Below, one piece after another: positions 25,005 through 29,499 of a stretch of DNA of 64,000 nt (within the stretch, counting starts at the first letter, position 1; the number at the start of each line of letters is the position of its first letter). This stretch comes from Trissonchulus latispiculum. Its lineage: Eukaryota; Nematoda; Enoplea; Enoplida; Ironidae. A program made the translations under genes and the position numbers. The stretch is taken from assembly GCA_030248195.1 (NCBI GenBank), contig JASAND010011075.1:1-64000 (forward strand), written 5' to 3'. Under the pieces are notes generated by a model. That model was given only the letters and a program-made list of their open reading frames with translations. It did not search any database and was not told the DNA's origin.

Positions 25005-26128
25005 CTGAAACAGAATGAAGGATATTTCTAAATTTCAGTTCAAAATAGCAAATCTTTCGCCTTGACAACAGATACGAATTGTCTCCGGTTTGGTGGCGGA
25101 TTCACAAATTCCACACTCAGTTTAAGGAAGGGGTAACCACAACATAAATTGTAGCATCACTAGCATCCGTCTGTGCGGAAGCGAGGTGGTAGCGCAGGCA
25201 AGTTCAATTTAAGCTTGTTCTTAAGAGTCTCCCGGCGGGCTTGGTCAAAACATGCCCCCAAGTGAGGAGAGATATGAACTGTCACACGCCTTTCAAATAA
25301 ATTTGAATTCTGAACTCTCTCTTAGGAAAGTGCGATTCAGTCTTTCCAACCCCCTTTCCCAACGAGCATCAGTTTTGCTACCTGATTGACTGTTCGTTCG
25401 CTACCCCACCCGGCACCAAACAGGGAAAGTTTCTGCCGTCTGATTGTCTGTTGCCCGCCGCTTCCAAACGGGAGAGTGTTTCTGTGTCTGATTAGATTTC
25501 GCAGCACCTTCAGCAATCATATTGGCTGTTGGATATTTCTTTCGACAAACGGGGGCGAGAGAATATTTTGCCAGCCTTTTTCGAACGGGGGAACAATTGA
25601 CGACACGTCGGTATTCTTGGGCCAGTTTTATAGAAATGTTCTCAAGCTCTCGAGTCAAGTAGCTAAACGACACTGAAAGTTTTCAAGGTCCGCAAGTAGT
25701 ATAGTAGGGCCATTTCGACCCCCATTGGAGTAAGAATTTTTTGGAGTAAATTTTCATTTGTTTAGTTTGTCTTCTTTGTTTTAGCACCCTTCTAGTTTCC
25801 CTTGCTCCCTTAAGCCACTTCTTCATTTGTCCGTCCCTCTGAGTTCTTCCCCGGGGCTTGGGACCCGGCGTCAGCCCATTACCGGACATCTACCTACCTA
25901 AACTACTTACGTACCTAACCTAATCTATATACAGTACCTAACCTACATACCTAATTTTTTACAATACCTAATCTACCTGCATACATACCTACCTAACCTA
26001 CAGTACTACCTAATTTATATACAGTACCTGGCTACCTATCTAACTACCTACCTACCTAAGACCGGTCCTAATCTAATATTTTTGTATTTTTCCTGTTTTA
26101 TCATTTTTTTATGTTTTTGATTTTGTAT

Positions 26129-26935
26129 TTAGTGCATAGTGTACCCAGTCAATCTATATACAAAAAAGCAAATACTGGTAACACCAACAACGACCCATTT
26201 TGTGGTAGGCCTCTGCTGTCGCGCCCACTCCAGAACATCCATCCTGTCAAACTCTAGATTAAGTTCATCCAAGTTTTCCCTATTTCCAATAAATTTAGGT
26301 TCTTCTAGGTAGTGGTTGTTATTAGAAGGGTAATAGAAAGCCAACTCATGGTCCAAAACATTTTGAAGGATGAAGCCAAACGAGAAGTTAATTTTGATGG
26401 AGTAGAATTGAGCATTAAAAATGGAGTAAAGGAGTTTCTTAAGGTTAGACTCCCTTGTGTCTTCCAAACGAAAGTTGTAAGTTGAGTAGATTCCCGGCCC
26501 GAGCTTAAACTTTGTCCTAATTTTGTCCCAGTTTTGAATATAGACATTTCTTATCGGCTCAGGGAGTGTCTCCAAAAAGTCCGCAGGTGGTTCAGTCGGA
26601 TCTTCCTTTGGGAGTAGCAACCGTGGGCACTTTCTTTGCATAAGCATTTTATCGAAACTTGCATGAACTCCCATGTGACCATCGAATCCTTTCTTAGTTT
26701 TAAATTTGCTTGTACAACGTTGGCAGGGATACTCTTCCTGAAGGGGGTCTTGCTCAGTTTTCTTAGGGGGTTCTGGCTTGCATACATGTTTAACCTTTGT
26801 GTCTTTCCGAGAGTAACTCTTCCCACATTTATCACAAGTGGACTTCTCTCCCTCATGTTTTTCTTTGATATGCCTGTTCAGGTTGTACTTTCGCGTAAAG
26901 AGTTTCCCACAAAATTCACATACGAAGCTTTCCAT
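26129..26935 (-). CDS. C2H2 zinc-finger protein, probable N-terminal part of a Polinton gene (left arm)
   Basis: Intact frame of 268 residues reading from the centre of the palindrome outward. Near the start are three zinc fingers. Finger 1 is CEFC...HIKEKH (about residues 5-26). Finger 2 is CDKC...HVC, a C2HC variant (about 34-52). Finger 3 is CQRC...HMGVH. A non-finger region follows (about 120-268) with IRNVYIQNWDKIRT, FSFGFILQNV, ELAFYYPSNNNH and WARQQRPTTKWVVVG, ending in a hydrophobic SICFFVYRL and a stop. This layout resembles N-terminal parts of proteins I remember as preceding protein-primed DNA polymerase B in animal Polinton-like elements, but I cannot verify it. The polymerase domain itself is absent, so the gene looks truncated. 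Confidence 0.6.
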   Translation of the reverse strand: MESFVCEFCGKLFTRKYNLNRHIKEKHEGEKSTCDKCGKSYSRKDTKVKHVCKPEPPKKTEQDPLQEEYPCQRCTSKFKTKKGFDGHMGVHASFDKMLMQRKCPRLLLPKEDPTEPPADFLETLPEPIRNVYIQNWDKIRTKFKLGPGIYSTYNFRLEDTRESNLKKLLYSIFNAQFYSIKINFSFGFILQNVLDHELAFYYPSNNNHYLEEPKFIGNRENLDELNLEFDRMDVLEWARQQRPTTKWVVVGVTSICFFVYRLTGYTMH

Positions 26936-27236
26936 TTTCGAATTCGTTAATTATATCCTTTCACGTCTTGTTATATATGATCAGTTTATATGCAATTTCA
27001 GAGCTCCAAAAAACCGACCGCTCACGACGAAGGAACCAGTCAAACTGACCCGATTTCAAATTTTTCACTGTTTATATAGACTTTTCAACACCAATACCCC
27101 TAGTACTCCCTGTACCCCCAGTACCCCCAGTACTCCCTGTACCCCCTGTACTGCCAGTACCCCTAGTACTTCTAATGCCGCCAGTACCGGGGGTGCTGGA
27201 GGTACAGGAGGTACAGGAAAAAAAAAGGTACTGGTA

Positions 27237-27357
27237 GGGGGGGGGGGGGGGGGGGGGGGGGGGGGGGGGGGGGGGGGGGGGGGGGGGGGGGGGGGGGGGG
27301 GGGGGGGGGGGGGGGGGGGGGGGGGGGGGGGGGGGGGGGGGGGGGGGGGGGGGGGGG
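27237..27357. repeat. 121-base G homopolymer at the palindrome centre
   Basis: Uninterrupted G run between the two arms, bordered by GGTACTGGTA on the left and TACGGGGGGTCGGG on the right. The open frame across it on the plus strand is an artefact (poly-glycine). Confidence 0.9.
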
Positions 27358-27652
27358 TACGGGGGGTCGGGGGGGTACTGGGGGTACAGGGGTACTGGGG
27401 GTACAGGGAGTACTGGGGGTACAGGGGGTACTGGGGGTACTGGGGGTACAGGGAGTACTGGGGGTACTGGGGGTACAGGGAGTACTAGGGGTATTGGTGT
27501 TGAAAAGTCTATATAAACAGTGAAAAATTTGAAATCGGGTCAGTTTGACTGGTTCCTTCGTCGTGAGCGGTCGGTTTTTTGGAGCTCTGAAATTGCATAT
27601 AAACTGATCATATATAACAAGACGTGAAAGGATATAATTAACGAATTCGAAA

Positions 27653-28460
27653 ATGGAAAGCTTCGTATGTGAATTTTGTGGGGAAACTCTTTACGCGAAA
27701 GTACAACCTGAACAGGCATATCAAGGAAAAACATGAGGGAGAGAAGTCCACTTGTGAAAAATGTGGAAAGAGTTACTCTCGGGAAGACACAAAGGTTAAA
27801 CATGTATGCAAGCCAGAACCCCCTAAGAAAACTGAGCAAGACCCCCTTCAGGAAGAGTATCCCTGCCAACGTTGTACAAGCAAATTTAAAACTAAGAAAG
27901 GATTCGATGGTCACATGGGAGTTCATGCAAGTTTCGATAAAATGCTTATGCAAAGAAAGTGCCCACGGTTGCTACTCCCAAAGGAAGATCCGACTGAACC
28001 ACCTGCGGACTTTTTGGAGACACTCCCTGAGCCGATAAGAAATGTCTATATTCAAAACTGGGACAAAATTAGGACAAAGTTTAAGCTCGGGCCGGGAATC
28101 TACTCAACTTACAACTTTCGTTTGGAAGACACAAGGGAGTCTAACCTTAAGAAACTCCTTTACTCCATTTTTAATGCTCAATTCTACTCCATCAAAATTA
28201 ACTTCTCGTTTGGCTTCATCCTTCAAAATGTTTTGGACCATGAGTTGGCTTTCTATTACCCTTCTAATAACAACCACTACCTAGAAGAACCTAAATTTAT
28301 TGGAAATAGGGAAAACTTGGATGAACTTAATCTAGAGTTTGACAGGATGGATGTTCTGGAGTGGGCGCGACAGCAGAGGCCTACCACAAAATGGGTCGTT
28401 GTTGGTGTTACCAGTATTTGCTTTTTTGTATATAGATTGACTGGGTACACTATGCACTAA
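27653..28460 (+). pseudogene. Zinc-finger gene copy in the right arm, frameshifted
   Basis: Mirror copy of the left-arm gene. An extra G in the first zinc finger (TGTGGGG instead of TGTGGG, near 27677-27683) shifts the frame after about nine codons, so the ATG at 27653 no longer reads into the rest. From there on it matches the left copy with only a few changes, for example CEKC for CDKC and RED for RKD. Both copies stop at the same place. The near-identity shows that the arms are young or kept alike by gene conversion. Confidence 0.75.
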
Positions 28461-29499
28461 ATACAAAATCAAAAACATAAAAAAATGATAAAACAGGAAA
28501 AATACAAAAATATTAGATTAGGACCGGTCTTAGGTAGGTAGGTAGTTAGATAGGTAGCCAGGTACTGTATATAAATTAGGTAGTACTGTAGGTTAGGTAG
28601 GTATGTATGCAGGTAGATTAGGTATTGTAAAAAATTAGGTATGTAGGTTAGGTACTGTATATAGATTAGGTTAGGTACGTAAGTAGTTTAGGTAGGTAGG
28701 AGTCCGGTAATGGGCCGACGCCGGGTCCCAAGCCCCGGGGAAGAACTCAGAGGGACGGACAAATGAAGAAGTGGCTTAAGGGAGCAAGGGAACCTAGAAG
28801 GGTGCTACAACAAAGAAGACAAACTAAACAAATGAAAATTTACTCCAAAAAATTCTTACTCCAATGGGGGTCGAAATGGCCCTACTATACTACTTCCGCA
28901 AGTTATGCTGAAAAAGCTCTCTCTCTCGCGGTCTCGAGTTAAGTTCTCTGATCGATTCGACAAGAGAATTTTTGCCAACTTGAGACTTACTCATGATATT
29001 TTTGAAAATTTATATTAGTTTTTTCTTTGTTTCAAGAATCTGCATAATTGACTAAATATATCACCATAAAATTGTCCGTAGATACATTTACATATATATA
29101 ATTTTCAATACGGAAAAGTTTTGTCACTGAAAACAGACTACTCGAGAACTTGAGAGTTTTTATGAAACTGGCCCCTGATCAGAGCACTTTATTAGACGCA
29201 ATATAATCAATGCGAGATGCTAAACTGCTTACCTTTCTTTAATAATAGCATATATTATGGGATCTGGCTTCGTTCATACATACTGTAAGTTTTCGATAGT
29301 GCCTTTATGAGCGCACTGCATGCCAGAACAAAAGAAAAAGGCTAGGTTTTGCTCGCGCACACTCCCTCGCCCCTCAGCAATCGGCATAAACTGAAAGTGC
29401 TGTACATATGGGTATATTCGTTGGAACTTTTGCGCTTTCCCCTCCAGCCCTAGCTTATGACTTTTTGACCAATGACTTTGAATTGTGTATATATAAATA

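Follow-up and report, generated by a model that had tools for sequence, protein, structure and literature searches.

A palindromic, non-autonomous element of the Polinton group in the nematode Trissonchulus latispiculum and its candidate satellite family

The element at 25695-28894 and its relatives in the genome

The window analysed here is a stretch of 64,000 nucleotides from the nematode Trissonchulus latispiculum (assembly GCA_030248195.1, contig JASAND010011075.1, positions 1 to 64,000). At 25695-28894 it holds a palindrome of 3,200 bp that starts with AGTAGTATAG at the left end and finishes with CTATACTACT at the right. The left end reads AGTAGTATAGTAGGGCC from 25695, and the exact reverse complement of this sequence closes the element at 28894. 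A 6-bp target-site duplication, TCCGCA, lies at 25689-25694 and again at 28895-28900, and the outer flanks are unrelated to each other. The features are listed below with the evidence on which each was entered; the genes N1 and N2 are described in the following sections.

25689..25694, no strand: target-site duplication TCCGCA, left copy (sequence)
25695..28894, no strand: candidate palindromic Polinton satellite, reduced form (N2 only), 3,200 bp (ends, arms, duplication)
25695..25704, + strand: terminal motif AGTAGTATAG, (AGT)2-type Polinton end (end motif as given in the accessible part of PMC8097293)
25695..27169, + strand: left arm (BLAST self-alignment)
26129..26935, - strand: N2 gene of the left arm, 268 amino acids (aa), open throughout (open frame, Pfam, homology)
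27095..27500, no strand: degenerate centre with GGGGGTACTGG-type repeats and a G run at 27237-27357 (sequence; N1 and core hairpin not found)
27419..28894, + strand: right arm (BLAST self-alignment)
27653..28460, + strand: N2 gene of the right arm, interrupted by an indel of one base near 27683 (sequence comparison with the left arm)
28885..28894, - strand: terminal motif, right end (sequence)
28895..28900, no strand: target-site duplication TCCGCA, right copy (sequence)

A BLAST alignment of the arms (25695-27169 and 27419-28894) over 1,480 columns has 15 mismatches and 1 gap, which makes them 98.9% complementary, a similarity far above chance. When the central repeat is set aside (25695-27146), the arms differ at 10 sites, namely nine substitutions and one 1-base indel. 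A previous sequence-only reading had described mirror arms of 1.54 kb. Mirrored arms do exist, but their length is about 1.47 kb, and the centre between them (about 27170-27418), made up of GGGGGTACTGG-type repeats and a G run of 121 bp, is asymmetric. Neither N1 nor the conserved core hairpin of the fuller relatives was found at this centre, and tblastn with the proteins of a complete Polinton of the same genome (C2459, see below) found no PolB, integrase, ATPase or capsid gene in the element. Both marks of Polinton membership, the (AGT)2//(ACT)2 termini and a 6-bp target-site duplication, are present. Compared with a snapback genome, the palindrome with its identical ends is self-complementary, and the ends would act as origins. 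The proposal of a palindromic, non-autonomous Polinton/Maverick derivative is borne out.

The genome searched comprises 733.8 Mb in 21,732 contigs. A search with the first 301 bp of the arm, in which 40 of 1,278 candidates were scored, returned at least 44 places, several of them inverted pairs. The 12 fetched loci that match from the first base all have precisely AGTAGTATAG as their end. The ends at the remaining loci were located by searching for AGTAGTATAG itself; five stretches (L011, L040, L048, L055 and L065) do not have the motif, and it is not claimed for every end. The pattern AGTAGTATAGN{1,12}CATTTCG, in which the terminal motif is followed by CATTTCG at most 12 bases on, was matched 495 times in the genome and not at all by a reversed control. 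Among 100 places listed, 11 pairs of this pattern that face inward within 15 kb were recognized by eye, and these are 2.2-14.9 kb long.

Target duplications were judged on the 18 elements for which both ends were available. Nine carry a perfect 6-bp duplication:

window, TCCGCA
C12916, GTGACC
C16083, GAAAAA
C833, AACTAC
C2922, TACAAC
C2620, AATGCC
C5582, CTTCTA
C1898, AAGGGC
C2459 (14 kb), CACAAG

The first six of these are palindromic, wholly or centrally. The sequence-only reading had called for a genome search with the arm, for a full-length Polinton with the same ends and for other palindromic copies with different duplications; all were obtained, the last two as C2459 and the five palindromic loci listed after the window. 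The duplication is absent in five of the 18 (C3407, C2699, C311, C10890 and C6901), and C5425, which lies at a contig end, was left without a verdict. The remaining three, C21459 (L005), C15346 (L012) and C18388 (L062), have mirror-image flanks. In these the palindrome continues into host DNA or an older element, the mirrored stretches being 92.6%, 78.9% and 99.4% alike, respectively. They were excluded as evidence for the mobility of palindromes.

N2 and the polymerase it resembles

The protein encoded by N2 in the left arm begins with C2H2 zinc fingers (Pfam, residues 4-27), followed by more Cys/His pairs until about residue 92, and ends with a domain at about 126-266 that resembles a terminal protein (TP). 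In the right arm, where the gene has the 1-base indel (perhaps a miscalled base within a run of G), the listed frame begins at GTG 27669; this copy was entered as 27657-28457 in the analyses of arm relationships and in the tree. The earlier statement that the palindrome doubles one gene fragment holds insofar as the gene is present in both arms. It is, however, a gene in its own right rather than a decaying fragment: the left-arm copy is open, and purifying selection acts strongly on the family.

Most of N2 aligns with the N-terminus of the C2459 PolB at 36% identity (E about 1e-52). N2 corresponds to the zinc-finger and N-terminal part of a Polinton polymerase, set apart as a gene of its own by a stop codon whose position is shared by 31 of 34 copies; none of the 147 matches listed has a frame longer than 350 aa. 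In the accessible part of PMC11071308, it is argued from structure models that the N-terminal domain of pPolB is the terminal protein that primes replication, and a vOTU domain is placed after the TP-like domain. No OTU family match was obtained downstream of the TP-like domain here. A terminal protein of the polinton and PRD1-adenovirid type is expected to fold into a sheet of four strands with two helices, LF/PAD-like. In the putative linking loop, where Ser or Tyr is expected between helix 2 and strand 4 near Gly or Pro, the sequence is QRPTTKW, which offers a Pro and a nearly invariant Thr (T245) and neither Ser nor Tyr. A CLFRCL motif likewise points to a vOTU domain after the TP-like domain. 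Scans of viral contigs with N2 and its one homologue, P0001, gave pattern matches but no relative. On balance, N2 probably acts as a stand-alone terminal protein.

The complete relative, C2459:30169-44238, is a Polinton of 14,070 bp with the same decamer ends. It encodes an integrase with a chromodomain (PF00665, PF00385), frames labelled protease-like and ATPase-like by resemblance only, and a weak double-jelly-roll match below the cut-off. Its large polymerase gene consists of two open pieces transcribed toward the right end. These pieces gave no polymerase match in Pfam, and the best 60 of 150 matches in a sequence search of the PDB were zinc-finger proteins only. The polymerase is assigned to PolB because many of its listed homologues carry PF03175; three of the listed homologues are named, and all three are echinoderm proteins. 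A search with PF03175 (77 of 935 candidates scored) gave at least 158 matches in the genome, many in frames of about 1,400 aa, and the C2459-type polymerase has at least 140 matches. The genome thus abounds in Polintons whose polymerase frames are open at about this length, and the nematode may be an active Polinton host.

Fuller relatives, the axis and selection

In fuller copies, N2 is accompanied by N1, another C2H2 protein, for which a protein search found no relative among 40 candidates. Both arms of C16083 carry, from the axis outward, N1 and then N2, and all four frames are open. C2922 has only N1 in both arms, and the gene order in C12916 is N2, N1, N2. C2620 and C311 combine one arm of N1-N2 with another of N1-u96. 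Both N1 and N2 are transcribed outward from the axis: neighbours on opposite strands are divergent in 25 of 25 N2 pairs (147 matches listed) and in 22 of 22 N1 pairs (150 matches listed; 1,828 first-look candidates).

The frame u96 is a third, short one of 96 aa with no Pfam match; in some arms it stands distally in place of N2. It was seen at C2620 (L044/L075), C311 (L053/L077), C833 (L069), C10890 (L022/L023) and C14013 (L018), and in the mixed elements C2620 and C311 the u96 arm faces the same half of the asymmetric core.

Traces of the polymerase are also present. In C6244, remnants of the PolB C-terminus lie distal to N2 in both arms; their last 168 residues are 93-96% identical to C2459 in both arms, and the preceding stretch is 95% identical in one and 59% in the other. 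The remnants are what is left of a polymerase gene. At three further places N1 stands divergently beside the N-terminus of a Polinton polymerase: C1525 (498-aa frame), C16964 (1433 aa; the match holds two stops) and C6457 (378 aa). Judged from such neighbours, satellite and Polinton halves may have been exchanged at a shared promoter region.

The axis of the fuller elements has a core that opens with the stem GTACTCGAAG, continues with TCGTCGCGTCGRATTGG and, some bases on, CCAATCTAGACATGACTAA, and closes with the complement of the stem. When the fetched loci were searched, this asymmetric form accounted for 12 of 13 cores (12 distinct cores on 12 contigs). The first symmetric form had no match, and the second had a single match, a hybrid (C16860). 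At some other loci the core is degraded or only one half is left. A 24-mer from one side of the core, with one mismatch allowed, has 245 matches in the genome and none in the control; among the 100 exact places listed, no second exact 24-mer was found nearby in opposite orientation. As single-stranded DNA, the core and stem form an imperfect hairpin in four of four cases tested, with z-scores of -5.6 to -11.8 that are owed in good part to the outer stem present in any palindrome. The axis also holds back-to-back motifs that we take to be CCAAT boxes, and because of these motifs the core is suggested to be a two-way promoter. With its conserved mismatches, the hairpin turnaround resembles the telomere junctions of poxviruses.

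Selection was estimated as the ratio of non-synonymous to synonymous substitution rates (dN/dS). For 26 intact N2 genes, the median dN/dS was 0.116 (pairs with dS 0.05-1.0 only) at a median dS of 0.49 (325 pairs). This set is made up of 28 copies entered as open minus two C7134 copies with a stop, and includes both arms of three elements; L043, L050, L051, L054, L056 and the right arm of the window element were left out of the 28-copy entry. For the N2 copies of eleven palindrome-type loci, each represented by a single arm, the median was 0.095 (54 of 55 pairs), with 0.106 for the fingers (40 of 55) and 0.089 for the TP-like part (54 of 55); these counts are the pairs that passed the dS floor, and no copy was dropped. 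Both sides of the axis are in hand for seven of the eleven (window, C12916, C3407, C16083, C5684, C2620 and C311), and for C18597, C18196, C20232 and C15360 one side was fetched and a divergent N2 partner is listed. For N1, the ratio was 0.118 over 19 distinct intact genes out of 23 intact frames (84 of 171 pairs used). Both families are under purifying selection and, judging by these ratios, the N2 family is not decaying debris. Within the 12 closest pairs of N2 copies there are 0-1 synonymous and 0-9 non-synonymous changes, as expected for neutral drift or sequencing error in each insertion, with selection acting on the lineage.

The two arms of an element tend to resemble each other most. 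In five of seven elements, the nearest relative of an N2 arm is the other arm of the same element, the exceptions being C16083 and C18388. In a tree of 34 rows, limited to N2 copies of more than 600 bases, both arms are present for five elements: the two arms of the window element, of C12916 and of C7134 form well-supported sister pairs, and the pairs of C3407 and C16083 have no resolved placement. The sister grouping predicted from an origin by snap-back replication, as proposed in the sequence-only reading, was thus seen in three of five testable elements, and such an origin would still be conjectural. Because arm pairs group together, the arms appear to have been re-made or converted after the lineages split, with the loop still asymmetric. 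This pattern is compatible with a single inherited palindrome that undergoes conversion through its hairpin, and also with fold-back recurring at a fixed hairpin.

Elsewhere in the window, a frame at 54835-55728 has a DUF1759 match and a weak zinc-knuckle, and presumably resembles retroelements of the BEL/Pao type. Positions 36001-38000 show a strong T-over-A skew (-0.349) relative to the remaining window, and G-rich repeats with CCCCGTTTGGGGG units are clustered at 30637-30978.

Interpretation and known systems

The best explanation, to which we assign a rough probability of 0.6, is that these are palindromic Polinton satellites which depend on a helper and themselves encode a stand-alone terminal protein, and that the copy at 25695-28894 is a reduced member. 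That the lineage is coding, selected, helper-dependent and palindromic is very probable. N2 would prime synthesis at the AGTAGT ends, and a resident Polinton would provide pPolB in trans. The displaced, self-complementary strand would then fold at the axis hairpin, and one origin would serve both ends, with the arms staying alike and the loop staying asymmetric. Finally, the Polinton integrase would insert the product and give the 6-bp duplication. By analogy, the AGT-AGT terminal repeat is consistent with the jumping-back start of replication described for Mavericks in the accessible part of PMC8097293. A bolder version, which we put forward tentatively and at somewhat less than even odds, would make the family a distinct class of mobile element: a one-origin palindromic Polinton satellite that replicates as a hairpin, encodes in each arm both a terminal protein of its own and a further zinc-finger protein, is TP-capped at one end and closed at a conserved imperfect hairpin, and swaps half-elements (N1-N2, N1-u96 and PolB arms) at the shared axis.

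Three other explanations were weighed. The palindromes could be dead by-products of snap-back, each an abortive product of Polinton replication integrated once, with the gene hitch-hiking and its selection taking place in autonomous Polintons. Palindromic snap-back genomes are known from another DNA virus, adeno-associated virus (AAV; accessible part of PMC8235507), and the closest N2 pairs show few signs of selection after insertion. This is nevertheless unlikely, since N2, at 36% identity to the fused domain, forms a diverse set of its own with a shared stop and no frame beyond 350 aa among the matches listed, its median dN/dS is about 0.1 at a median dS of about 0.44-0.5, and the asymmetric core is fixed in 12 of 13. 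Alternatively, N2 and N1 might serve interference or regulation by binding Polinton ends or promoters, N2 being a decoy for the fused TP-PolB, in the service of helper control or of a host-favoured defence. Both are C2H2 proteins, the CCAAT pairs that we presume to lie at the axis suggest a two-way promoter, and AAV snapback genomes regulate rep expression (PMC8235507, accessible part). However, constraint is as strong on the TP-like domain as on the fingers (0.089 versus 0.106) and the ends required for priming are retained, so that this role seems rather unlikely as the main one.

An assembly fold-back is far less probable than either. The mirror-image flanks of C21459, C15346 and C18388 speak for it, and at C18388, where the stretch is 99.4% alike, an artefact is possible, but the mirrored stretches of the other two (92.6% and 78.9%) have themselves diverged. 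A simple fold-back is strongly disfavoured for the window element because its flanks are unrelated, its duplication is perfect and its arms differ at 10 sites, all at once; five further palindromic loci each have another duplication. Two simpler labels were also rejected. A miniature inverted-repeat transposable element (MITE) has no coding capacity, whereas N2 has an open frame in the left arm and shows constraint throughout its family; the description as MITE-like had set the element too low, given the conserved N2, the two genes per arm in fuller relatives and the conserved axis hairpin. Nor is this a Polinton with merely long terminal repeats, as the duplication flanks both ends of a short unit.

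The satellite shares with Polintons/Mavericks (adintovirus-like) the (AGT)2//(ACT)2 ends and 6-bp target duplication (PMC8097293, accessible part), homology of its arm gene to the pPolB N-terminus and a full copy with identical ends in this genome. It differs in size (3-5 kb against 14-20 kb), in its palindromic form and in having the TP domain as a separate, duplicated gene, and the polymerase body, integrase and capsid were not found in it. By its ends and gene descent the element belongs to the Polinton group, and is neither an autonomous Polinton nor a MITE. Like MITEs and foldback transposons it is short, inverted-repeat and non-autonomous; unlike them, it has ends of the Polinton type, and purifying selection acts on the conserved genes of its family. 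The AAV snapback genomes (5'-SBG) are likewise self-complementary with one terminal origin, and mirror their promoter region together with a portion of the replication gene rep (PMC8235507, accessible part). Those are subgenomes in virus stocks, primed from the inverted terminal repeat, whereas the satellite is an integrated multi-copy lineage with selected genes. In adenovirids and PRD1, too, the TP gene is separate from pPolB, and the fold class is alike by prediction (PMC11071308, accessible part); N2 derives from the fused polinton form, sits on a satellite behind zinc fingers, and would have its priming role by homology. Transpovirons and virophages, as far as the sources consulted describe them, are also small elements that exploit the machinery of a larger one, but the presumed helper of the satellite is an integrated Polinton. 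A deletion derivative of the Kalilo linear plasmid reportedly has hairpin forms (Vierula and Bertrand, 1992).

Polinton copies and non-autonomous elements have been recorded in a placozoan (PMC2871265), in the accessible part of which the string "palindrom" does not occur. Within the open-access literature, judged by titles and the start of abstracts and with subscription papers and most preprints outside its scope, no palindromic or TP-encoding Polinton satellite was found among the papers listed.

Polintons are regarded as a link between DNA transposons and several groups of viruses and, to our knowledge, their replication has hardly been tested so far. The satellite apparently keeps just the ends and a presumed primer protein, selected in the family, which hints at a minimal protein-primed unit. 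It offers a small system for testing whether the polinton N-terminal domain primes DNA. If the satellite reading is true, Polintons have satellites of their own, and palindromes can be maintained as a functional form rather than as errors of replication.

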